Position numbers and translations under genes: made by a program. 64,000 nt of DNA from Microcaldota archaeon. Its GTDB lineage: Archaea; Micrarchaeota; Micrarchaeia; Micrarchaeales; Micrarchaeaceae. Where the stretch lies: assembly GCA_021811435.1 (NCBI GenBank), contig JAJZOR010000005.1, positions 1-64,000 of the forward strand, in the 5' to 3' direction. Below the pieces are notes generated by a model, which was not told the DNA's origin, searched no databases, and saw nothing but the letters and a program-made list of their open reading frames with translations. Below are positions 23,665-41,172 of this stretch, one piece after another (positions within the stretch are counted from its first letter, which is position 1; each line of letters begins with the position of its first letter).

Positions 23665-24612
23665 ATGATAGACTTTAGAGAAGTAGACAATGTAAGCATA
23701 TTGGACTTATTGGTTTCAAAGATGCTTATCTTTACAAAAATGGACTTGATAAAAGTCATAGTTGATACAACAAATAACTGGGCTTCGTTGCCGCTTTCAT
23801 ATTTCAGTGGAGGCGGCGGGTTTACCGCCAAATTTAGGGATGGAAAGACTAAAACATACGGAAGCATGATAGAATTTTTCAACGATGCAGTAATAGCATA
23901 TTTGATTAAATCTGGGAAAGTTAAGGAACGCGGCGGAGCAGTTGAATTTGATTATGGTGGCAGGAGAGTTGCAATGCTTGGAGGGCTACCGCTTTGCGCC
24001 GGGTTGATATTCGAGAACTTTTTGAACGACCAATATTCATGGCTCACGGTTGAAGATAAAACTGTGATAGATATAGGTGCAAATATCGGTGACACGGCCA
24101 TATATTTTGGAATCAGGGGCGCGAAGAGAGTTTACGCTTTCGAACCGTATCCATATGCTTACCGATTTGCAAGGGAAAACATAAAGCTAAACGGACTAGG
24201 CGATAGGGTAGAGGTGCTAAACGAAGCTTGTGGAGGCAGTAAAGATGCATGTATAAAGATAGACAGAAATTTCAAAAGTTTAAGGAATACGGCGCTGAAA
24301 GATTTCCACCATGGTAAAGCCATACGGATCGAATCCATTGGCGAGATCGTAGAGAGATTCGGCCTTGATGGGGCGGTGCTAAAAATAGACTGCGAAGGAT
24401 ATGAATATGGGATAATATTGGATTCTAGCAGAAAGACACTACGAAGATTCGATCAGATTATGGTGGAGTACCATTTCGGATATATCAATATAGTCAAAAA
24501 ATTGAAGGAAGCAGGCTTTTCCGTAAAACATACAATGCCTATGTTTGTACCGGACAGAAGCAACAACGCTTATGGAATGCTGGAAGGCAACATACGAGCA
24601 GTTAAGGTTTAA
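23665..24612 (+). CDS. FkbM-family SAM methyltransferase
   Basis: 315 residues. SAM motif VIDIGANIGDTAIYFGIRGA, then YAFEPYPYAY, and LKIDCEGYEYGIIL are the FkbM hallmarks; members O-methylate sugars of glycans or lipids. The N-terminal 120 residues are divergent. Base composition is clearly more AT-rich than upstream genes and it opens a cassette of glycosylation genes, so a sugar substrate is likely. Confidence 0.9.
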   Translation: MIDFREVDNVSILDLLVSKMLIFTKMDLIKVIVDTTNNWASLPLSYFSGGGGFTAKFRDGKTKTYGSMIEFFNDAVIAYLIKSGKVKERGGAVEFDYGGRRVAMLGGLPLCAGLIFENFLNDQYSWLTVEDKTVIDIGANIGDTAIYFGIRGAKRVYAFEPYPYAYRFARENIKLNGLGDRVEVLNEACGGSKDACIKIDRNFKSLRNTALKDFHHGKAIRIESIGEIVERFGLDGAVLKIDCEGYEYGIILDSSRKTLRRFDQIMVEYHFGYINIVKKLKEAGFSVKHTMPMFVPDRSNNAYGMLEGNIRAVKV

Positions 24613-24777
24613 GCGCTGTTAGCAGATTTTGATTGACATTAATGCCATGTGCGATTTTGGGTAGGCGCTTGAGGCTGATTAGCTTATTTGTTAGCTCATC
24701 AAACTTTGTCGCCTAAGGCTGTTTTATGAATGAATTTTCTTGTAGTCAAGAAGCCAGATTTAGCTAAACAGGTACGC

Positions 24778-26442
24778 TTATTTTATTTTTTTGTATATAG
24801 TAAGCGGCGGTGCATCGCCGGAGTATGCCAGGAACGGATTACTTACGTTATAGACCATACTGTAGTCTGTCAGATTCCTGCTTACGCAGCTATCGAAATT
24901 GTCTGTGTATGATGGGCTTAAATCGAAGCTTATAGTGCCTCCCATTGCTATATAAGTACCGTTTGTCAGGTTATCTATATATGAAACGCTGCAGTTTTCT
25001 AGGTATGCGATGTTATACTTGTATGAAGTAAGGAGGTTGGCCTCGCCTGAAAAAAAGAAGCTGCTATAGAATTTTGAGGATGGATGTGTGCTCATATAAT
25101 TAATGAAAGAATGGAGCGTGTACATTGATGCCCTGTAGAACCCTATATCATTGTTGAGTACGCTTATATCGTAATACAGGACTACGCATATTAAAATAAA
25201 TGCAATGGCGTATAACAACATGCTTTTATGCTTCAGCATGGCCTCTAAACCTAGCGCAGTGACGACTATTAGAGGGAGCGTGAACACGGTAGTTATGTAA
25301 GTTACCTCGCTTATTGGATAGTAGTCCACAACGCCTTTGGCGATATTTACGTTGGAAGGAAAGAACATTATGGTTATCAGATAGAACACAAAGAGACCTA
25401 TGAACGCTAGTGCCCATTTGTTTTTGCGCATAAATACTATGTCTAATCCTGCCATTGCGATGAATGCGTAAAACGAGGCGCCGAAATATTTTAAGTAGGG
25501 ATCTACGGTAATAGGGGAATCGGTAAGCACTGATGGATAGAATGACGGGTAACCTGTCGTGTAAACAAGGCAGAAATTGCTTGATACGCAATAGCTCACT
25601 GTTGGCTGCGTCGCGTCTTGGTATACGTATACGGCGTGGGTTAATTCGGGGTATAAGAGATAATTGCCAGCCTCCAGTAAGTATACCAAGCCGATTAGGG
25701 AATATGCAATTATGAATCCCAGTACTATGAATGCGAAATTTTTAACTACGATTTTGTATGCCAACTTTTCTTTTAATGCGCCTACAATGCACATAATGGC
25801 GAATACTAATGGCAATAATGCCCCTATTGGATTAGTTATATATGTCAGGCCGGCGAATACGCCTGCGCTTAGATATAAGCTTATTTTATGTTTCTCATTT
25901 GCTATGATAAATGCGTAAATCGCTATATCGCCCATCATCATCGCAGGCACGAGCGGCTGTATATGTGTGGAAAACAAAACGTCAACAGGGAAGAATGCGA
26001 ATAAAAATGTGCCGATGACTGCTGCTCTGAATCTAGAAATGCGCTCGATTATTAAGAATATGAAGAAACCCTCTATGACCGAAGTAAGTATAACATAGTA
26101 TATTGCTATGTTTGCAGAAAAACCAAATATTTCCTGCAGCAATATTTCAGGATATATAAATCCTACATAGAATTGGAATTCCTCCGCCGGGTTACATCCA
26201 CAACGACTAAAATTGTTAAAGTTGATATCTGTATATGGCGAGAAGGATATTTGGTTTTTGAATAGAACGACAAGGGAGTATGTGTTTAGATATATTCCTT
26301 CATCTTGAGAATTGGCAAATATTGGGCCGCTGTAATAATAGAAGCGAACACTAAGTATTAGTAGCATTAAAAGTAAGATAACGGTTAGTCTTACGTTTTT
26401 GCGTTTACGCAGCCTAGAATAGGTATTCTTCATCATATGCAT
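24778..26442 (-). CDS. multi-pass GT39/PMT-like glycosyltransferase
   Basis: About 554 residues with 10-12 hydrophobic helices. After the first helix comes FANSQDEGIYL, the acidic pair used by GT-C enzymes for metal or catalysis, then loops like those of ArnT/dolichyl-phosphate-mannose transferases, and a long soluble C-terminal loop. It probably transfers a sugar from a polyprenyl phosphate on the outer face. ATG 26442 has a GTGAG site; a GTG at 26451 is also possible. Downstream of the polyprenyl-sugar synthase. Confidence 0.8.
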   Translation of the reverse strand: MHMMKNTYSRLRKRKNVRLTVILLLMLLILSVRFYYYSGPIFANSQDEGIYLNTYSLVVLFKNQISFSPYTDINFNNFSRCGCNPAEEFQFYVGFIYPEILLQEIFGFSANIAIYYVILTSVIEGFFIFLIIERISRFRAAVIGTFLFAFFPVDVLFSTHIQPLVPAMMMGDIAIYAFIIANEKHKISLYLSAGVFAGLTYITNPIGALLPLVFAIMCIVGALKEKLAYKIVVKNFAFIVLGFIIAYSLIGLVYLLEAGNYLLYPELTHAVYVYQDATQPTVSYCVSSNFCLVYTTGYPSFYPSVLTDSPITVDPYLKYFGASFYAFIAMAGLDIVFMRKNKWALAFIGLFVFYLITIMFFPSNVNIAKGVVDYYPISEVTYITTVFTLPLIVVTALGLEAMLKHKSMLLYAIAFILICVVLYYDISVLNNDIGFYRASMYTLHSFINYMSTHPSSKFYSSFFFSGEANLLTSYKYNIAYLENCSVSYIDNLTNGTYIAMGGTISFDLSPSYTDNFDSCVSRNLTDYSMVYNVSNPFLAYSGDAPPLTIYKKIK

Positions 26443-26452
26443 TATGCTCACG

Positions 26453-27241
26453 TTACCAATTAGCTATTAGTCTGTATAACGCTGGTCTTAATTTAGCAGG
26501 GATTATAAAGCTAAACCTTGAATGAATTATCCTAAACCCTATTGCAACAAAAAACATCTGCGCACTTCTTAATCCGAGGTTTATCTTCATGCTACTATCG
26601 CTCTTATTAACAAATTTTATAGGTATCTCATCTACTTTTTTGTTTTCTATTTTAAGCTCATAGAGTAGGTTTAAATCAAAACTAACATCCATTAATATGA
26701 TTCTACTAAGCACATTTTTTAACGCACTTTTTTTAAACAGTTTCGCTCCGCACTGTGTATCATTGAACTTTAATCCGAACAAAATTTTTACTACCTTATT
26801 GTAGGCGCGTGAGGCAATTCGTCCTTGCGAACTTAGATGACCTTGGTTTATGCTTCCCTTTGCGTACCTCGATGCTATCACACCATCTAATTTAGCATCT
26901 TGAATCTTATCTATCAGTTTTATTAGCTCTTCACCAGATATGGCATCATCTGCATCGGCGAACCCTATAATGCTCTCATTTTTAGACTTCTTGTAGGCAT
27001 ATTTGAAGCCCCTTAATATAGCAAAACCCTTACCTTTTCGTTTACTATTTTTTATTAGGGATATAACATTGTATTTTGATGAATAAGAGGAGACGACTTT
27101 ATTTGTATTATCTGTGCTGTCTGAAACAACCAATATGTGTGTATCTGTGTATCTCTTTGCAACTGTATTCAAGTAATCCTCCAACGTGGGCTTTATCCTT
27201 TTTTCTTCGTTATATGCGGGTATAACGATCCAAACTTCCAT
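26453..27241 (-). CDS. GT2 dolichyl-phosphate glucose/mannose synthase-like
   Basis: 262 residues. GT-A fold with VIPAYNEEKRI, VVSDSTDNTNKVV, DxD-type FADADDAI, TQCGAKLFKK and a C-terminal amphipathic region, closest to Alg5/DPM1-type enzymes that load glucose or mannose onto dolichyl phosphate. It would supply the donor for the adjacent GT39-like proteins. AT-rich codons and many AAA/ATA triplets. Ends 11 nt before the GT39 gene start. Confidence 0.88.
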   Translation of the reverse strand: MEVWIVIPAYNEEKRIKPTLEDYLNTVAKRYTDTHILVVSDSTDNTNKVVSSYSSKYNVISLIKNSKRKGKGFAILRGFKYAYKKSKNESIIGFADADDAISGEELIKLIDKIQDAKLDGVIASRYAKGSINQGHLSSQGRIASRAYNKVVKILFGLKFNDTQCGAKLFKKSALKNVLSRIILMDVSFDLNLLYELKIENKKVDEIPIKFVNKSDSSMKINLGLRSAQMFFVAIGFRIIHSRFSFIIPAKLRPALYRLIANW

Positions 27242-27285
27242 AATATCATTACTATTTTTTGTTATTAATGACGAGCCAGTGGGAT

Positions 27286-28899
27286 TTAGTTACCGCCCTG
27301 TGCTTTATAATATACTGTGAGATTTTTGTAATAAGAGTTAACAAACGATGTGTATAAAGTGCCAGTAGTAGAAGAAGGAGGTGGAGCGGCATAGGCAATG
27401 GTAAGATTGCATTGCTTTGCCATTGAAGCGTTGTAGAAATATATTATGTAACCTACGCCATTAACGTAATTGCAGGGCGGCAGAGACGAAAAGAAATAAA
27501 ATGTGTGTTGAAAATTTGTAAATGCAGGAGCTGGAATTTGGTAGGTATCATATAAAATGGCATTTGAGGGCAATGTGTTTGTATAGTTACCCACTTCTAC
27601 AATTTCAAATATTTGCCCATACTGCTGCATGGCTGTATACTGTATCGAACTGAAAGACTGTGAAAACAATATGAATAGCATATAACCTAAGAGTAAATAG
27701 GGTAGGATTATCGTAAAGCGCTTTATACCAGTTTTATATTTTTCGAATGTCGTGATTAGCGAGTCCATTCCGAATCCAAGAATTAGGACTAATGCGGGCC
27801 AAATTATTAGAGTGTAACGAGGTAGAGGGTACCAAATGCCATTTGTATAGTAGTGAATGCTGGCAGTCCCAAAACTTAAATAAAGGAAACACCAGAGAAT
27901 CCATATTAGTGGAATGGTCATTCTTTTTTCCTTTTTAAAAATCAGGTAACATAAAGCCAATAATACGACATACGAGTATATTCCATAATAATAAGGACTG
28001 AAAAAGTCAAATTCTGAAACAGGATTTATCGCCAAGTTAATGTGAAGGTATGCTAGTATGTTATTTAATGAACTTATACCTTGTGGGAACATTTGTGTCA
28101 GGTATATCATTATAGGGCTTGAGTTACCGCACGAACCATGATTCACAGAGCAGAAATCGCTGATAGATAGCGCGTTTGACTTGTATATTTCAAATGGATT
28201 ATTTGATAGCATTACGCCTATTAGCATCATAAGCAAAATTCCTGCAATAAGTGCTGCGGAGAAGCCTATGAAATCTTTGTTGACATAGGCGTGCCTGCTC
28301 TTAATTAAGAGTATAAAAAGCACTGGAAGTATCAGTATTTCTTCTGGAGTTATCATAAATCCGATTATTGCTATAAAACTGGAAAGTGAAACCATGTATA
28401 ATCTTTTTCTTTTATCTTTCTGCTTTGCGGATATAATCATAAGAAAAATAGCTAGTGTGACAAAAAATGCCATTGGAACATTGTCTCCTAAACTAAGTGC
28501 ATCAAATACTGCAAGTGGAAAAAAACTATATAGCAAGGCTGCAAAGAGACCTGCTCGTGTTCCGTAAATCTCCTTTCCTATTAAGAAGATTAATATATCG
28601 GTACCGACAAGGCACAGCACATCGAATAGAACCGAAGAGAATCTACTAACTCCAAGTAGTTGCATGAACAAGTGTATTGCACCTATAAGGATTAGGCGCG
28701 GACCAAGCATATAATCGTAGTTTAGTACTGCAGCGGCTCCGCCGGGTGTACCTATAGTATAAGCATCCACTACGTAGTCGTAGCCATTTGGTTGGTACGC
28801 AGGATCAGGACCATAGTAAAATGAGAAGCATAGCGTTATAGATAGAAAGCATATTAGGGCGATGGCTAAATATAGAATTATACGATTTCGGCTTAGCAC
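27286..28899 (-). CDS. multi-pass GT39-like glycosyltransferase
   Basis: 537 residues, about 11 membrane helices, acidic YGPDPAYQ and NGYDYVVDAY in the first outer loop, then LGPRLILI and a soluble C-terminal domain with Cys pairs. Same architecture as the protein at 24778-26442 with weak similarity, so a paralog acting on another sugar is likely. AT-rich. Head of the minus-strand glycosylation run. Confidence 0.78.
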   Translation of the reverse strand: MLSRNRIILYLAIALICFLSITLCFSFYYGPDPAYQPNGYDYVVDAYTIGTPGGAAAVLNYDYMLGPRLILIGAIHLFMQLLGVSRFSSVLFDVLCLVGTDILIFLIGKEIYGTRAGLFAALLYSFFPLAVFDALSLGDNVPMAFFVTLAIFLMIISAKQKDKRKRLYMVSLSSFIAIIGFMITPEEILILPVLFILLIKSRHAYVNKDFIGFSAALIAGILLMMLIGVMLSNNPFEIYKSNALSISDFCSVNHGSCGNSSPIMIYLTQMFPQGISSLNNILAYLHINLAINPVSEFDFFSPYYYGIYSYVVLLALCYLIFKKEKRMTIPLIWILWCFLYLSFGTASIHYYTNGIWYPLPRYTLIIWPALVLILGFGMDSLITTFEKYKTGIKRFTIILPYLLLGYMLFILFSQSFSSIQYTAMQQYGQIFEIVEVGNYTNTLPSNAILYDTYQIPAPAFTNFQHTFYFFSSLPPCNYVNGVGYIIYFYNASMAKQCNLTIAYAAPPPSSTTGTLYTSFVNSYYKNLTVYYKAQGGN

Positions 28900-29119
28900 A
28901 CGCGAACCTTTTTTGCTTTTTTATGCTTCGTCTTGGGTGGCACCATTGTCAAACCTATTATTTCTGATTATTTAGTACTTGATAATTATAAAGTTGTAAT
29001 GGCATCTACGTTAAATTTTTTAGCAGTAGCACTTAAACAGCTATTACGGACGTAGGAAGGTTGCGGGCAATCCGTGATCTGATATAGCTCACGCTGGACC
29101 ATGAACAAAAAGAAAAGAA

Positions 29120-29145
29120 GATTGAGGAGAAGGACCTTGTCATTA
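29120..29145 (-). repeat. 3' arm of 23S rRNA processing stem
   Basis: Reads in RNA sense as TAATGACAAGGTCC TTCTCC TC and pairs with the arm at 31989-32021 on the other side of the 23S gene, with small internal loops around a central GACC/GGTC helix. This resembles the bulge-helix-bulge stem cut by the archaeal splicing endonuclease during rRNA maturation. Confidence 0.75.
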
Positions 29146-31988
29146 AGTCAGGCTTTAGTAACGGTATGTTCGCAGATCGCGTGAGCTTTCTGTTTACGCA
29201 CCCGTCCTATCAAAGTCGTCTATTGCGACCGCCATAGTGTCTCGTTTCGGGTCTGGCTTCGTCCTTAGATGCTTTCAGGACTTATCCGTTTGGCGCGTGG
29301 CTACCCGGCAATGCATTCACAACCGGTACACTAGAGGCGCCGATTCCTTGTTACTCTCGTATTAAAGTGAATCTTATCCTCCGACACTAACACTCCCAGT
29401 AGATATTACCGTACTGTCTCGCGACGTACTGAACTCAGCTCGTGTTGGTTTTTAATGGACGAGCAGTCCAACCATTGGCGGCTTCTGCACCGCCAGGATA
29501 ACCAAGGCCCATATCGATGTATCAATGCGCGGGGTCGCTGTGGACGCTCACCCGCGACGAATCGGTTACCTCCAGAGTAACTTGTTTGACAGCTCGGAGC
29601 CCCATCAAAAGAGCTACCGACGTTCGTTAAGCCCCTCTTTCGAGTCTGCATACCACGCTTTTCAGTATACAGTCAGCCCAGCATTTGCCTTTTCGCTTAC
29701 CGGTAGGTTCCCAACCCACCTAAGCTGAGCATTGGCCACTTTCGTTTCCTTATCGAAAGCAACCGTCCAGTCTAACTATCCACCTGTAGCTGTCCCCATC
29801 ACTGGGTTAGCCGCACGACAAATTAAAAGCGGTGTTACATTGTCGCTCCACGTGGGCCGCAGCCCACGCTTCGACGCTCCCGCTTACGCTATGTATAATC
29901 CATCGTGCAACAACTGCAGGCTATAGTCAAGCTTCATGGAGACTTCATTTCCCACTGAGAGATCGCGGCATATTCACCGCGCAGTAAGTTCACCAGGTCC
30001 GTGGTTGGGACAGTGGAACAATCGTTACGCCCTTCATGCAAGTCACCGATTAAGTGACGAGGTATTACGCTACCTCAAGAGAGTCAGAGTTACTCCCGCT
30101 CTTTGCCAGCGCTTATTCCCGTTGAACCGGGCTTTCACGTACTGGCGGTGAGCAGGCGTCACCCACTGTACTAGGCGTTTCCGCTTTGCGGTGAGTTGTG
30201 TTTTAGATAAACAGTCGTTGTTCCCTTGTTAGTGACATCTGCGCTTACCGAGCGCAGACACGGCTTATCGATAACTTACGCCACTAATTTGCCGATTTCC
30301 CTAACCACGGTTCTCCCGTCACACCTCGGCCTTTTCAGCCAGCAACACTTGTACTAGATCTAGGTACGGACTGACATGATCGTTGCGGATTCCCTTTTCA
30401 CGGGCCCAAGAAATCATCCCATTAGTTCATTTAGCTGCTTCTCCTCATAACGAGACTCCGTAGCCATTTGCACTGTCTTGCGGGACTATCCCCAGGCGTC
30501 AGAAATCCACCTTGCGTTGCCGCTCCTACATGTCAGGGGCTGGGATATTAACCAGCTTCCCTTTTGAGATAAGGTGATTGGCCTACCTCTTAGGATCGCC
30601 TAATTCTCCGCTGACGAGCGTTGCGAAGAAACCCGTGTGCTTAAGGTGTATTGGATTCTTACCAATATATGCTGTTACTGATACCAGGATTTTCTCTGCG
30701 GCACGGTCCATACGAACTTTCGAACGTACTTCCAGCCATGCCGCACGCCTTCTTACCAGATCTTATCGATCTCTATGGTCTCGGTACCTAATTTAGCCCC
30801 GTATATTTTCGGCAAGGAATGTCTCAACTGGTACGCTATTACGCGTTTTTTGAAGGATGGCTGCTTCTGAGCCTACCTCCCAGCTGTCTTAGGCACTCCC
30901 TCCCTTTGATACATTTGATTAGGATTTGGGGACCTTAACCATAGTCACTATCTTTGCAGTCTCGCGGGGCTAGCTTACCCAACCTCGCCGACTCCTGTGG
31001 TCTACGCAGCGCATGCATTCGGAGTTTGATAAGAAGGTGGAACCTTTCGATTCCTTACCCCCTAGTCGGTCGCTCTACCGCATGTGCAAGCTCGCACAGA
31101 GCTATCCTAAAGATACTTCAGAAGGGACCCGCTATTGCCGTGTTCGAGTGGTATATCGCCGCTACCCGTAACTCACCCAACAGGACATGCCATGACAGGT
31201 GGCGGACCTCCACCAGGCGTTAGCCTAGCTTCATCCTGGTCACGCGTAGCTCACAACGGCTTCGGGTCGCATAAAAGTGACTTGGGCATTTTCATACCTT
31301 GCTCCTCGCATGCTGCGAGCTCTCGCTTTCGCTGCGCCTTTCGGCTCGCCACTCACTATGCACTCCCTGGCTCTTGCTTCAAGAAGAATGGCAAAACACT
31401 GTTCCAAGCGCCTCGCCCATCCGTCTCCAGATGGAGCTTCGGCGCCCTTCATTCCTTTCATGCCTTGCCTTCGTGTCACCACCTAGTTTCAGATCTCGTT
31501 TCAATCCCACGCGTGTGGGTTCTTTTCAGCTTTCGCTCGCGCTACTTGTTCGCTATCGGTCTGTAGTCAATATTTAGGGTTGGGGTTTAATGCCCCCGTA
31601 TTCACACCGTGTACTCAGACGGTGTTACTCGCTTGTAGCTATGCCCATCGCACTTCGCCTACGAGACTGTCACTCTCTATGGTCGCTCTTTCCAGAGCGT
31701 TCAGCTCATGTTCTGGGTCAAACGCTACGCCACATCTCCGCGCCTTTTGCAAGGCGGGATTCGGTGCGCCCTCCGCTGTTTTCATTCGCATTACTAGCAG
31801 CATCGATTTTCTTTCTTCTCCTGCGGGTACTAAGATATTTCAGTTCCCCGCGTGCGCCTGCGTATTGCTACGCATTATTCGGTGATCCCGGGTTCAGAGC
31901 CCGACTTGCGGCTACCCCGGGCTTATCGCAGCTTGCCACGACCTTCTTCGCTACTACAGCCAAGCCATCCTCTAGGTGGTTTTATTTA
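29146..31988 (-). rRNA. rrl: 23S ribosomal RNA (divergent)
   Basis: About 2840 nt on the minus strand. The 5' end reads like archaeal 23S (GAGGATGGCTTGGC, GGTCGTGGCAAGCTGCG); domain II keeps the GTPase-centre segment CAGAAGCAGCC, and the 3' domain keeps GGCGCCTCTAGTGTACCGG. Ends are set by a complementary processing stem. Several universally conserved sites differ (P-loop, peptidyl-transferase ring, helix 69, sarcin-ricin loop), as detailed in the findings. No 16S or 5S is linked. Length is normal, so no large intron is present. Many small frames across it are not genes. Confidence 0.93.
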
Positions 31989-32021
31989 TAATGACAAAGG
32001 TCTTTTCTCCTCAAATCAATC
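31989..32021 (-). repeat. 5' arm of 23S rRNA processing stem
   Basis: RNA-sense sequence GATTGA TTTGAGGAG AAAAGACC TTTGTCATTA is the complement of the arm at 29120-29145 apart from small bulges, giving a stem of about 22 bp that loops out the whole 23S. It marks the precursor boundaries of a separate 23S transcript. Confidence 0.75.
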
Positions 32022-32370: not shown

Positions 32371-33966
32371 TTAGTGGTAGTATAAGAACACTATGCCACT
32401 GGGCGCCTGTCTGGGCGACCCGTCGGTACCGCCCGCCTTCTGCCCCGAGCCCCCGCGGCCCCCGCCGCCGAATGATGTGCCTGCATTTCCCCCATTGCCG
32501 TAACTACCGCTGCAAGAGCCGCTACAAGAGTAAGTGCCGCTGCCGCCGCCTCCGCCATAAGCGCCTCCGTAACCAGTCCAAGGGTTAGCACCTCCGTAAC
32601 CACCCATCCCGCCGCTGGCCGTTATTGTGCCCTGATTGCCTATGAGTCCGCTGAGCGCTATGAAAACCGTACCACCGACCCCTCCTTCACCTCCTCCTCC
32701 GCCGCCGCCGAAAGCGCAATTGTTGTTCACGCAGATGTATGGTGGGTTACCCATGTTGCCGACGCCTGCGCCATTAGCTTCTATTGTACCACCGCTGTTG
32801 TTCAAGTAAGAAGTGTAAATTTCGACTATTCCGCCGCCATTGCCGCCTCTGCCGCCGCTCTGGCCTCCAGCGCCTAGATTTCCTGGGCAGTTGAGCCCTG
32901 CCCCTCCTCCTCCTCCGCCCGCGCCGCCCTGACCCCCAGATAGCAAGTGACCGAACAGATATGAGCTTCTTGATATCCCATTTCCTCCATTACCTCCGCT
33001 GCTGCCGCCTTGGGCAGAGCCGCATCCACCGGTGGTCCAGGTGCCTCCCGAGCCCCCACTCCCTCCTCCGCCGCCGTCATGGGTATCGGTTATCGTACCT
33101 GCGTTGTTTAGGTAGCTAGCGGCAGAAATCCAGTGGCCCATCTCGTCAAGCGTGACTCCGCTCTGCACCGTTATATTGTAGGTGGCGTTCACATCTCCGT
33201 GGAGCTGACCCGCGAAATTGCTGTCGAAACTGCTGTTGTAGATTACCGTGCCTGGGCAGACACCGCTAAGCAGATTGTAACATATCTGTATGCTGGTGGA
33301 GGTCGATGTAGATGAGGTGGTTGAGGTTGATGTGCTGCTGGAACTGGATGAGGTGGATGACGAAGTAGTGGTAGAAATGCTGGTACTCGAAGTAGAGGAG
33401 GTAGTTGAAGTTGAAGATCCGCCGCCTGCGCTTACAAAGGCGCCGGATCCGCTGTTCTGCGCGCTTATGGTCGCTACCTTGGCGTACTGGACTCCTGCGT
33501 AGCACTGCGGGTTGGTGCAGTATCCAATCCAAACGTAAGCAGAAAGTGGGGCGCCGACAGGTGCTGCGATTGGTATGCCGCCTTGGGCAAGGCTGTTGAA
33601 GTCTACGGTCACGGTCTGGCCGGGTGCGAGATTGCCTATAGCGTAAGAATATGATGACATGTTGGCAGGTATGCCGGAGCTGTCAAGACCGAGGCTTTCT
33701 GAAGCGACGAACACGTTCACTGCGTAGTAGTACCTGCCGGTGCTCTGGCCGAAAGTGAAGGACACTGCGTTGGCGGTGTAACTTGGGTTATAACATGTGT
33801 AGGCTGATTGCGCCGCGCATACGTTTGGTGAGGGAGGCCCATTGAGAAGCCCTAATGCGAAGAGCACGGTTATTATTATTGCTATGACGAGTATCGCCCA
33901 ACCGTAGGTCATCAGGTACTCCATCGCCGACTGGGCCTTGGGCTTTGTGTTGCATTCCTTGTACAT
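32371..33966 (-). CDS. pilin-like surface protein with Gly-rich C-terminal domain
   Basis: 531 residues in three parts. Residues 1-175: class III signal peptide (KAQSAMEYLMTYGWAIL) and a pilin-like head with Cys pairs. About 176-230: Ser/Thr linker. About 230-531: Gly-rich, sequon-containing domain with GGxGG repeats and paired Cys, reminiscent of parallel beta or polyglycine-helix surface proteins. ATG 33966 has a GTGAG site. The first part is nearly identical to the protein at 34081-35661, the rest unrelated. The stop abuts a tRNA-like stretch judged to be chance. Confidence 0.85.
   Translation of the reverse strand: MYKECNTKPKAQSAMEYLMTYGWAILVIAIIITVLFALGLLNGPPSPNVCAAQSAYTCYNPSYTANAVSFTFGQSTGRYYYAVNVFVASESLGLDSSGIPANMSSYSYAIGNLAPGQTVTVDFNSLAQGGIPIAAPVGAPLSAYVWIGYCTNPQCYAGVQYAKVATISAQNSGSGAFVSAGGGSSTSTTSSTSSTSISTTTSSSTSSSSSSTSTSTTSSTSTSTSIQICYNLLSGVCPGTVIYNSSFDSNFAGQLHGDVNATYNITVQSGVTLDEMGHWISAASYLNNAGTITDTHDGGGGGSGGSGGTWTTGGCGSAQGGSSGGNGGNGISRSSYLFGHLLSGGQGGAGGGGGGAGLNCPGNLGAGGQSGGRGGNGGGIVEIYTSYLNNSGGTIEANGAGVGNMGNPPYICVNNNCAFGGGGGGGEGGVGGTVFIALSGLIGNQGTITASGGMGGYGGANPWTGYGGAYGGGGGSGTYSCSGSCSGSYGNGGNAGTSFGGGGRGGSGQKAGGTDGSPRQAPSGIVFLYYH
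33689..33765. repeat. 77 bp direct repeat, copy 1 (pilin head)
   Basis: This 77 bp segment, coding the YYYAVNVFVASESLGLD part of the pilin head, is identical to 35402-35478 while flanking bases differ at scattered sites. Identity over all codon positions points to recent duplication or gene conversion. Confidence 0.85.
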
Positions 33967-34080: not shown

Positions 34081-35661
34081 TCACTGCACTGAGCCAAAGC
34101 TAGCACTTGGCATTCCACCCTGCAATGGCATCAGCCTCTCATCCCAGAAATACAGCTTAGCGGAAAAGCTGTTAGGCGTATTGAGCTGCATTGTCAGGTA
34201 GTTCTCCCCGCCGCACTCATTGAAATTCGGGTTCAGCCCTGTCGACGCGTTGTTCGTTGTCTCGGCGACCGCGTTATTAAGCATTAGTGCCTGCCCGGTC
34301 TGGTTGGCCCACAGCGTGTAGAGCGTAGGGCTCATGTATGTGGGATCCGAGACGCTGGGCGCGCCGTTATTCATGACGTTAAGATTGACTTGGCCGCTGC
34401 CGAAGTTGCTGCCGAACGTTATGCAGCTGCCAAGGGCGAAAACGCCCTGGGACGTGAAGTCGTTGGGGTTGCTGTTTACGGCCTCGTACCAGTCGGTAGC
34501 CATAGGCACTGGTAGCGGAGCAGTGGATGACGTAGATATGCCACCGATTCCAGCCGCACCCGTATTTGTTACAGTTATGCTGTTGGGGTTATCTGTTATG
34601 CCGGCGGTGGAGGATTGGCCTGCATACCAGCCGGAGGGCAAGTTGCCGCCGCTAAGCCCGCCGAAAGCCTGGTAGAACGCGAATACGTTATGACCATCGT
34701 CAAACTGGGCGTAGCTTGATTGCGCGTAGCTGCCTCCGTATAGCTGCGGCGCCTCGCCCGTCGGGCCGCCGGGCGACATCACGTTGCTGGGCATTAAGTT
34801 CATGTATATGTTGAGCGTTCCGCCGTTGCCGCTTATGGTGTTTGAGCCCAGATTCACCCACCACGTCGATGGGAGAGAACTGGTACTGCATCCGCTCGCG
34901 CACCACGCCTCCAATGCAGTCCCTGTATCTGCTGCACCGGTAGTGAATTCTACGTTGCTTAAGCCTGAATTAGCGTATGTAAAGCAGTTGCCGCCGCCGC
35001 ACGTAGAGCTTCCTATTGTAAGCATCTGCTGGAATTTTGATGGAGTAGCGGTGCTGCCGGACGTAGTGGTAAGGGTTATTTGCACGTAATGAATCGTGCT
35101 AGTGCTGGTGCTCGATGTGGAGGTGCTCGAAGTCGAGGATCCACCTCCGAAGGCGCTGGATCCGCTGGCCTGCGCGTTTATCGCGGCGACCTTGGAGTAC
35201 TGGACGCCGCCGGTGCACTGGGAGTTGGTGCAGTATCCGAGCCATACGTATGCCGCTAGCGGGGTGCCGACAGGCGCGTCGGGCTGTATGCCGCCCTGCG
35301 CAAGGCTGTTGAAGTCCACAGTGACGGTCTGGCCGGGTGCGAGGCTGCCTATCGCATAAGAATACGACGATATGTTGGCAGGTTTGTTGGAGCTGTCTAG
35401 GCCGAGGCTTTCTGAAGCGACGAACACGTTCACTGCGTAGTAGTACCTGCCGGTGCTCTGGCCGAAAGTGAAGGACACGACATTTGATGTGTAGCTCGGA
35501 TTCGCGCAGGTGTAACCCAACTGCGCCACGCATGAGGTGGGGGCGGAGACGCCGTTGAACAAACCGAGTGCGAACAGAACGGTGATTATAACGGCAATTA
35601 CTAGTATGGCCCATCCGTAGGTCATCAGGTACTCCATCGCACTTTGCGCTTTAGTCTGCAT
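34081..35661 (-). CDS. pilin-like surface protein with DUF2341-like C-terminal domain
   Basis: 526 residues. Residues 1-175 repeat the pilin-like head of the neighbour (AQSAMEYLMTYGWAILV, FGQSTGRYYYAVN). A short Ser/Thr linker leads to a beta-rich module (VQITLTTTSGSTATPSKFQQ, STWWVNLGSNTISGNGGTLN) like DUF2341 domains of archaeal surface proteins, then a jelly-roll-like end. ATG 35661 is about 26 nt from a TTATATTAAA box, so the transcript is probably leaderless; the in-frame TTG at 35676 is unlikely. Confidence 0.85.
   Translation of the reverse strand: MQTKAQSAMEYLMTYGWAILVIAVIITVLFALGLFNGVSAPTSCVAQLGYTCANPSYTSNVVSFTFGQSTGRYYYAVNVFVASESLGLDSSNKPANISSYSYAIGSLAPGQTVTVDFNSLAQGGIQPDAPVGTPLAAYVWLGYCTNSQCTGGVQYSKVAAINAQASGSSAFGGGSSTSSTSTSSTSTSTIHYVQITLTTTSGSTATPSKFQQMLTIGSSTCGGGNCFTYANSGLSNVEFTTGAADTGTALEAWCASGCSTSSLPSTWWVNLGSNTISGNGGTLNIYMNLMPSNVMSPGGPTGEAPQLYGGSYAQSSYAQFDDGHNVFAFYQAFGGLSGGNLPSGWYAGQSSTAGITDNPNSITVTNTGAAGIGGISTSSTAPLPVPMATDWYEAVNSNPNDFTSQGVFALGSCITFGSNFGSGQVNLNVMNNGAPSVSDPTYMSPTLYTLWANQTGQALMLNNAVAETTNNASTGLNPNFNECGGENYLTMQLNTPNSFSAKLYFWDERLMPLQGGMPSASFGSVQ
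35402..35478. repeat. 77 bp direct repeat, copy 2 (pilin head)
   Basis: Identical to 33689-33765; see that entry. The two copies lie in the same reading frame of the two pilin-like genes. Confidence 0.85.
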
Positions 35662-36108
35662 TAACCCGCGCTGCAAAATTTAATATAATTGTATACAAAA
35701 CAAAGGCTTAAATATGTTGCTCCAGTCCGCATGGATTAGGAGCGCGGCATTTTGGTATGACATGTTTTACTTACTTGACTACGCCACATGGAACATAGGT
35801 TACACTACAGGTATTCCATCGATGACTGGGCATTGGATGCGGAAGCACGCTGCCTTGCCGTATATTTCCTATCGAATCCATTCGGAAGAGACGCTATGCA
35901 TAGCTTCAACGCAATTTTTGTTGATGCGGACATATAATCACGGCACGCTTGCGCATTGCGCAGCATGCTCAGCGTCCATTACACTGACTAATTACGATAC
36001 AAGGGAATCGCCTTGATCTATCTATATAAAAGCTTAAAAGCATTGTATCGGCAGTGGCATTTGATAGGAACTCGATAGTTTTCTAGGAGGGCGCGTTTTA
36101 CGGCATAT
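35662..36108. other. gene-free 447 nt region with two plus-strand TATA boxes
   Basis: CTTAAATATG at about 35707 and CTATATAAAAGC at about 36023 both look like plus-strand promoters, yet no convincing plus-strand gene follows; the one longer frame (35714-36016) begins inside the first box and has no protein-like composition. It may hold short RNAs or be a decayed gene. The pilin promoter occupies the left end. Confidence 0.4.
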
Positions 36109-37440: not shown

Positions 37441-38586
37441 GTGTTAATTGTGGAAGGGAAAAACTATGTTGCGTTCACCGACTTCAGGTTCGTCAACGAA
37501 GCCAAAAGCGAGCTTGGCATGATATTCAGGGGTAGGGCGGAGGGCCTGAGGCCGCTCTACGGGGAGGTGCTGCTCTTCAGGCTCGACGAGGACTATGGCA
37601 GGGCCATAGGCGAATTCAGGGCAGCTAGGCCTACATTCATCTACGGACTGCTCCAAGTGGCTAAGTCGCTATACTTTGACGGGACTTATGACGGCATTAT
37701 GGCCGCGCTGAAAGACATTCTTGAGGAGGGCAGGAAATTCAGGATAGAGGTCAAAAACGTTTGGGCAGCGGTGGATGAAACAGCCAAGGACGTCGAGGTA
37801 CTGCTGGGGCGCGCCATGGAGGGCAGCGGCCTCACCGCAGACCTATCGTCACCTGAGGTAATGGTTTACGTGGTGCTCGTGAACGACAGGGCGCTGATCT
37901 GCACCCTGGATGTAGGGCTTTACGGGCAATATGTCATGGATCCTTTCAGGAAGGCGAACAAGAGCGGCTATAGCGCCCTGAATCGCTCCGAATACAAACT
38001 CGCCGAGGCGGTCGAATCTTTCGGGATAGACGTCGGATCGGTTGCGCTCTGCCTTGACGTGGGCGCCGCGCCGGGCGGGTGGAGCAACTACATGCTGAAG
38101 CACGGGGCCAAGGTGGTCGCCGTAGACAGTGCGCTGCTTGATTACGGCAAGCTAGCAGCCAGGAGTATACTTGTTGTTACTGAAAATGGAAATGTAGGCG
38201 ACCTGTCTGGAGGGCGGCCAGAAATTCGGATAAGGAGCGCCGCGCCGGGCGCGCTGCCAGGCGACATATCTGAATACGACATGGTGCATATAAAGGGCAG
38301 GGCACAGGATGCGCTGCCTGCGGTGCTCGGCAGGTTGGGCAAATTCGATATGGCCCTGTCTGACATGAACACGACTCCGGAGGAAAGCGCCAAGGTGTTG
38401 GATGGGATTGCAGGCGCGATCAAGGAGGGGGGGCGCGTGGTGCTCACCATAAAGTTGGTTGACAACCGCGTGCAGAAGCACATAAACGACGTGAAGCGCA
38501 TACTCTCGCAAAATTACGGCGGTTTCATGGTCAAAAAGCTGCCGCATGACAGGATGGAGCTTACCGCCTTTGCCATAAAGAAGTGA
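37441..38586 (+). CDS. THUMP-FtsJ RNA 2'-O-methyltransferase (RlmM-like layout)
   Basis: 381 residues: an N-terminal region and THUMP-like domain (about 60-160) followed by an RrmJ/FtsJ Rossmann domain with CLDVGAAPGGWSNYML (motif I), DMALSDMN (motif IV) and a lysine near VVLTIKL as expected for the K-D-K-E 2'-O-methylase tetrad. The order matches bacterial RlmM, which methylates C2498 in 23S rRNA. Start is GTG 37441 (a later GTG is possible). TATA AGATATATAATT near 37362. Confidence 0.85.
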   Translation: MLIVEGKNYVAFTDFRFVNEAKSELGMIFRGRAEGLRPLYGEVLLFRLDEDYGRAIGEFRAARPTFIYGLLQVAKSLYFDGTYDGIMAALKDILEEGRKFRIEVKNVWAAVDETAKDVEVLLGRAMEGSGLTADLSSPEVMVYVVLVNDRALICTLDVGLYGQYVMDPFRKANKSGYSALNRSEYKLAEAVESFGIDVGSVALCLDVGAAPGGWSNYMLKHGAKVVAVDSALLDYGKLAARSILVVTENGNVGDLSGGRPEIRIRSAAPGALPGDISEYDMVHIKGRAQDALPAVLGRLGKFDMALSDMNTTPEESAKVLDGIAGAIKEGGRVVLTIKLVDNRVQKHINDVKRILSQNYGGFMVKKLPHDRMELTAFAIKK

Positions 38587-41072: not shown

Positions 41073-41172
41073 GCCAGGGTGGCGGAAACCGGTAACGCGC
41101 CAGTTTTCAAAGGCGAAACTCGAGATCTGGTTTCCATTCGTGGAAGTTTGGGTTCAAATCCCAACCCTGGCG
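41073..41172 (+). tRNA. tRNA-Ser (CGA) with probable 14 nt intron at position 30/31
   Basis: Class II tRNA: acceptor GCCAGGG/CCCTGGC, D-stem GCG/CGC, variable arm TTCCA-TTCG-TGGAA, T-stem TTGGG/CCCAA, discriminator G73 as in archaeal tRNA-Ser. The anticodon arm folds only if 41104-41117 is removed: CCAG+A pairs with TCTGG around loop CTCGAGA, anticodon CGA. The intron would lie in the anticodon stem rather than at 37/38; a strict bulge-helix-bulge is not obvious, so exact ends need RNA data. Confidence 0.85.

Follow-up and report, generated by a model that had tools for sequence, protein, structure and literature searches.

Order-wide changes around the peptidyl transferase centre and a shortened P loop in the 23S rRNA of the archaeal order Micrarchaeales

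The peptidyl transferase centre (PTC) of the ribosome is regarded as almost frozen throughout life, and the length of the P loop as fixed. The window studied here, i.e., the whole stretch of 64,000 nt from an acidophilic, dwarf archaeon of the Micrarchaeales, carries a 23S rRNA gene altered in both, which raises the question of whether it belongs to the ribosome of an unusually fast-evolving lineage or is a specialised or decaying paralog, the two readings offered by the original prediction. That prediction had placed the gene at 29146-31988; a 23S gene does lie there, with limits that proved ~10 nt too short at both ends, as the Rfam archaeal LSU rRNA model (RF02540) covers 29136-31998 on the (−) strand over its entire length (positions 1-2987 of 2987). 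The normal length ascribed to the gene was confirmed (2863 nt, inside the range of 2823-2874 nt among its relatives in the order), as was a processing stem, whose arms at 29127-29145 and 31989-32007 are extended by GAGGAGAA/TTCTCCTC, read directly from the sequence. Cofolding of the long 23S flanks gave no clear gain over shuffles, and the stem call is therefore based on the explicit inverted repeat I3. The gene and its stem are laid out as follows.

29136..31998, (−) strand: 23S (LSU) rRNA gene, full length and intron-free (RF02540, 2218.7 bits, model 1-2987)
31989..32007, (−) strand: 5′ arm of the processing/terminal stem (inverted repeat I3), with GAGGAGAA as its outward continuation
29127..29145, (−) strand: 3′ arm of the processing/terminal stem (inverted repeat I3)

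The rRNA genes of this genome are unlinked, with the single 16S on contig C5 and the single 5S ~43 kb from the 23S on the same contig, C8. Beside the 23S, the stretch at 24000-29000 has a GC content of 35-44% compared with ~53% around it and encodes two PMT_2-type mannosyltransferases and a family 2 glycosyltransferase; these are possibly surface-glycan genes acquired horizontally. At 32371-33966 and 34081-35676 on the (−) strand, there is a tandem pair of 531-aa proteins that share an N-terminal QSAMEYLMTYGWAILVIA... segment, which resembles a class III (pilin-type) signal and is followed by a Ser/Thr-rich linker. Neither member of this pair has a Pfam match.

Divergence of the 23S was measured at conserved columns, defined in a first test as those in which E. 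coli, Deinococcus, Haloarcula, and Halococcus agree with one another and with eight or nine of nine Micrarchaeota from outside the order; archaea from outside the Micrarchaeota were represented in the comparison by the Rfam consensus and these two haloarchaea. The window differed at 68 of 823 such columns (a few of them artefacts of gap placement in the P loop). Thirty-nine of these differences are changed order-wide and six are private or near-private; members of the order have 0 to 19 changes of the latter kind. When the criterion was tightened by using 21 relatives from outside the order and masking the P loop, 743 conserved columns were left, of which the window differed at 50, with 25 positions changed in 80% or more of the order. 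The PTC ring and A loop accounted for 5 changes at 36 positions, compared with 45 at 707 positions elsewhere (p = 0.09), i.e., the PTC is not spared from change, yet it shows no significant enrichment over the rest of the molecule.

The sites concerned are given below in E. coli numbering, with counts from 47 aligned sequences of the order.

29760..29772, (−) strand: P loop (H80), GACUGGACGGUU, 1 nt shorter than the canonical GACUGGGGCGGUC of the Rfam consensus
29940, (−) strand: C2064U, partner of 2446; the pair is UA in 46/47 order members and CG in the references
29942, (−) strand: A2062U, nucleotide of the exit-tunnel entrance; U in 37/47 order members and A in all references
29561..29571, (−) strand: PTC strand 2446-2456, with G2446A, A2448G, and A2453C; U2449, A2450, A2451, and C2452 kept
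29508..29520, (−) strand: PTC strand 2497-2509 (ACAUCGAUAUGGG), with C2499A, G2505A, and C2507G; C2501, G2502, U2504, and U2506 kept
29457..29469, (−) strand: A loop 2548-2560, with compensated G2550A-C2558U and with U2554C; U2552 and G2553 kept
29435, (−) strand: G2582A, partner of 2507; the pair is G.A in 32, G-C in 13, A-U in 1, and C-G in 1 (n = 47)
29352..29363, (−) strand: sarcin-ricin loop (SRL), with bulged G2655A (34/47 of the order) and with G2664U in this genome only

The changes at functional-core sites announced by the original prediction are real and include C2064U/G2446A, A2453C/C2499A, G2505A, C2507G/G2582A, A2062U, U2554C, G2655A, and a P loop short by 1 nt; alignment did not return the core positions to the canonical state, and the core substitutions remain. 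The affected positions are common to the order, and the paired ones have mostly changed on both sides. Specifically, pair 2064-2446 went from CG to UA in 46 of 47 sequences, and 2453-2499 from A.C to C.A in 44 (U.C in two and G.U in one); 2456-2495 is UA in 46/47, 2550-2558 turned from GC to AU or UA, and 2589-2605 from AU to UA. The single-sided changes are A2062U (37/47), G2505A (46/47), U2554C (34/47), and G2655A of the SRL (34/47). Two substitutions, A2448G and C2499A, are background shared across the phylum, and position 2503 is C in Micrarchaeota outside the order (A2503C) and A inside it.

The assignment of PTC nucleotides to contacts with the tRNA CCA end is standard structural knowledge. 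We found that the CCA-end and reaction-site nucleotides are almost all kept and that the layer behind them has been exchanged: G2061, C2063, A2450, A2451, C2501, U2506, U2552, G2553, C2573, G2583, U2584, U2585, and A2602 are retained in 47/47 sequences, the exceptions in the first shell being G2447 (46/47, A in one) and C2452 (42/47, U in five). At 29345-29370 on the (−) strand, this genome alone has G2664U and one additional A in the stem of the SRL, which represent either a real change or an assembly error. In addition, an FtsJ-domain methyltransferase is encoded ~5.4 kb from the 23S (37441-38586, (+) strand); its match to RlmM, the 2′-O-methyltransferase of C2498 in 23S, is below threshold, and this protein is a candidate for modifying the altered PTC strand.

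The canonical archaeal P loop UGGGGCG is absent from the window, where UGGACG, one base short, stands instead; this lowers the status of the gene as a "typical archaeal LSU" and leaves its identity as an LSU rRNA intact. All 47 sequences of the order have CUGG(A/G)CGG, one base short, with one of them reading UUGGACGG. Haloarcula, Halococcus, E. coli, Deinococcus, and the other Micrarchaeota with an intact region have CUGGGGCGG, with a few C-to-U or G-to-A variants. A pattern search across 301 genomes of the phylum found the short P loop in 86, all belonging to families f1 and f2, and the canonical loop in 56, none of them in f1 or f2. In genomes matching neither pattern, the LSU is perhaps unassembled or the flanks of the pattern differ; 20 of these genomes were inspected, and eight had no 23S match. 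In f13, f24, f26, and f27, the P loop was canonical on inspection and had been skipped by the pattern because it is preceded by GGUUUG in place of AGUUUG, and one broken P-loop match (L233, f13) was left unjudged. The H80 stem under the loop is kept by covariation, with GAC...GUU and GGC...GCU as its two forms (A-U to G-C). The nucleotide was lost from the P loop before the order diversified.

The same lineage emerged when GTDB r220 genomes were scanned for TTGATACMYCGATATGGGC, which is the strand bearing A2505 and G2507; there were 70 loci, every one within an LSU rRNA gene. Ca. Micrarchaeota was the label on nearly all of their records, a few were named Marsarchaeota or uncultured archaeon, and a single locus came from a Planctomycete bin. 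The contig labelled Planctomycetota (JAGWZR010000042.1, L117) carries a 23S of Micrarchaeales type, and its bin is therefore probably contaminated. The window 23S has all three marks of the order type (short P loop, G2505A, and C2507G), and the sequence nearest to it (L014) comes from the same genus at 90% identity. An LSU tree, one of the checks proposed by the original prediction, recovered the order as a single clade (SH-aLRT 100) with a long stem branch of 0.23-0.31 changes per site, with root-to-tip values of 0.82 for the order and 0.76 for the window compared with 0.51 for other Micrarchaeota. Together with the order-wide core changes, the long stem and root-to-tip values uphold the reading of a fast-evolving lineage. 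We also asked whether G2505A marks this order and no other, and rejected the idea: a second Micrarchaeota clade (L223-L231; f13, f24, f26, and f27) carries an independent A2505 with C2507 and the P loop canonical, and position 2505 alone is thus not diagnostic of the order.

The other reading, a specialised or decaying second copy, requires a canonical 23S elsewhere in the cell, with the gene described here being an accessory or a pseudogene. A search of the full genome, also proposed at the outset, found only this one 23S gene with the bacterial and the archaeal model alike, as well as one 16S and one 5S; the assembly is a draft (92.7% complete, 25 contigs), and its missing part could formally hold another 23S. 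However, each of five relatives assembled in a single contig (G012, G013, G027, G046, and G066) has one 23S as well, with the same changes. The last of these is the complete genome of the cultured Ca. Micrarchaeum sp. A_DKE (NZ_CP060530, a 989,838-base contig), which belongs to the same family as the window and whose genus is placed under the order Micrarchaeales at NCBI. Its sole 23S has U2062, U2064-A2446, C2453, A2499, A2505, G2507-C2582, A2655, and the short P loop, and cryo-tomography of A_DKE revealed abundant, clustered ribosomes (PMC8975820). For the co-culture of A_DKE, RNA reads are available as well (PMC8975820). Two 23S genes per bin do occur, since bin G014 has two different ones (L004 and L030), but both are of the order type with the short P loop. 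Given a single 23S in this genome and in the single-contig genomes, the altered state of the only 23S of A_DKE, and the abundance of its ribosomes, the paralog reading fails, and we consider it highly improbable; the core changes are, moreover, common to all sampled members of the order. The second 23S of G014 (L030/L220, G014:C35) is an observation apart: it has a short P loop yet canonical G2505, C2507, and G2582 together, and it places within family f1 in the tree. The two 23S contigs of this bin have no genes in common except antisense frames inside the 23S. L030 was rejected as a paralog of G014 because it is indistinguishable from a foreign contig, and it reflects either a joint reversion or such a contig.

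Base pairing speaks to the same question. In domains V-VI, 192 Rfam pairs have a letter at both positions; 184 of them form standard pairs in the window, and 95.8% of the pair cells are standard across the 47 sequences of the order, within which 117 of the 192 pairs have changed on both sides. The compensated helices of the original prediction are borne out by these counts and its decaying paralog is not: helices are constrained by pairing, private changes are not in excess and fall inside the range of the order, and decay is rejected. Covariation of this kind bears equally on whether errors of sequencing or assembly, or misalignment, imitate the core changes, for which we see next to no probability. 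The six private or near-private changes, including G2664U and the extra base in the SRL stem, may include errors, and MAFFT did misplace the P-loop gap. However, the changes recur in 47 aligned sequences and in 86 genomes that stem from many projects, the Rfam alignment yields identical calls, and the compensated partners lie far apart in sequence. Most of the core changes recur in dozens of genomes that were assembled independently, and sequencing error is therefore not their source.

We conclude that the gene is very probably the sole, functional 23S of a Micrarchaeales archaeon, one that evolved fast on the stem of the order and in which the layer outside the catalytic nucleotides appears to have been rebuilt. 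That it is the only 23S found in the genome and that its changes are order-wide argue for a ribosome that is inherited and evidently works, and against a redundant or decaying copy. In the stem lineage of the order, a fast-evolving ribosome would have had its P loop and second shell rebuilt by compensatory change, and the changes would most likely have spread as slightly harmful mutations that were later compensated, in the small populations of host-dependent cells. Among the observations that count against this explanation are the non-standard G.A pair at 2507-2582 in 32/47 sequences and the private G2664U of the SRL, which it does not explain.

The lost base of the P loop would most simply be G2250, the sequence being compatible with more than one placement of the deletion. 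We prefer G2250 because G2251-G2252 then stay available to the tRNA and the tolerant position 2253 is occupied by A or G; in E. coli mutant data, G2251 and G2252 are the least tolerant, and G2253 and G2505 are highly tolerant (PMC7049736). After this loss, C75-C74 of the P-site tRNA would pair with G2251-G2252. Peptide-bond chemistry would proceed as usual, given that A2450, A2451, C2063, C2501, U2506, U2585, A2602, G2553, and G2583 are all present and that G2250 is the likely lost base. In Thermus, G2505A, A2453G, U2500C, and G2447A are viable (PMC7345174). The tRNA that meets the P loop is presumably of the normal kind, since CCA is not encoded in the two tRNAs read in the window and a gene for the archaeal CCA-adding enzyme is present. 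A tRNA at 41073-41172 on the (+) strand, found by Rfam and missed by ARAGORN, is 100 nt long, a length that suggests an intron.

Alternatively, GGA or GGG between U2249 and C2254 might seat the CCA end of the tRNA in a different geometry, with the rest compensating, which we regard as rather unlikely. The family of the window would then possibly do without the 2252-C74 pair, the rebuilt second shell of the PTC and the tip of uL3 would compensate, and, if this were true, we would be dealing with a natural ribosome that seats peptidyl-tRNA in another way. As for uL3 itself, its tip motif GYHxRT has become G(Y/F)NYR(T/S) in the order (L188-L218), with GFNYRI in this genome, and in family f1, Phe replaces the PTC-proximal Trp of GPWHP. 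Judging from these sequences, uL3 has plausibly co-adapted with the altered 23S. In a genome search, the uL3 match of two order members (L209 of G015 and G013:C1:902547-903485) spans one in-frame TGA.

Fast evolution on the stem of the order, our preferred explanation, has a milder counterpart in the 16S, where 34 of 622 conserved columns are changed in a style like that of the 23S. The 16S of this genome (L050, G000:C5:25476-26962) has compensated swaps in the decoding site and the pseudoknot. Specifically, C18-G917 has become G-C, and, adjoining the decoding site, C1404-G1497 has become U-A and U1406.U1495 has become C-G; G527A is present as well. These pairs enter into another explanation, that ribosome inhibitors or ribotoxins selected the changes at 2062, 2453, 2499/2500, 2505, and 2655 of the SRL, followed by compensation, with 1404-1497 and 1406-1495 of the 16S as drug- or toxin-blocking changes. 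Pair 1406-1495, the aminoglycoside site, is indeed among those changed, many of the alterations fall on positions known from drug binding or resistance, and G2505A originated twice in the phylum. A set of PTC mutants in Thermus comprises G2447A, A2453G, U2500C, A2503G, U2504C/A, and G2505A, with A2503G and G2505A isolated as chloramphenicol-resistant (PMC7345174). However, drug sites coincide with the conserved core, and an overlap is therefore expected from position; the majority of the order-wide changes fall outside drug sites, the enrichment in the PTC is not significant (5/36 vs 45/707, p = 0.09), and no producer or selective agent is known. Selection by inhibitors is thus an unlikely source of the changes, blocking substitutions in the 16S included.

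An order with a co-cultured member in which the PTC and the P loop are both changed, with compensation, amounts to a natural experiment, one that separates dispensable core contacts (second shell) from indispensable ones (first shell) and offers ready-made combinations of changes for ribosome engineering. The order Micrarchaeales gains a strong synapomorphy, and caution is called for in LSU phylogenies and with rRNA primers or probes at "universal" sites. We found neither the P-loop deletion in Micrarchaeales nor the set of core changes described in the open-access literature, the scope of our search.

Among known systems, DPANN archaea have unlinked rRNA genes (PMC8997704), and the 16S, 23S, and 5S lie apart here as well; this likeness is one of layout only and says nothing about the core sequence. 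In the 23S of Thermoproteota, the A loop varies naturally at C2554/C2555, a variation linked to heat stability in a study in which neither DPANN nor Micrarchaeota come up (Nissley et al. 2023, PMC9976906). Both cases are lineage-specific, natural substitutions in the archaeal PTC, and U2554C occurs in 34/47 sequences of our order. However, the Thermoproteota variation concerns two A-loop positions and is tied to heat stability (PMC9976906), whereas the changes in Micrarchaeales extend to the P loop, PTC ring, and SRL of the 23S and to the decoding site of the 16S. PTC mutants of E. coli and Thermus demonstrate that several of the same positions can be changed, with G2505A and with changes at A2453, U2500, A2062, and G2253 (PMC7049736; PMC7345174). 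In contrast to these laboratory mutants, whose ribosomes are normal but for one or a few changes, Micrarchaeales have many changes fixed jointly, with their partners changed and a base deleted from the P loop.
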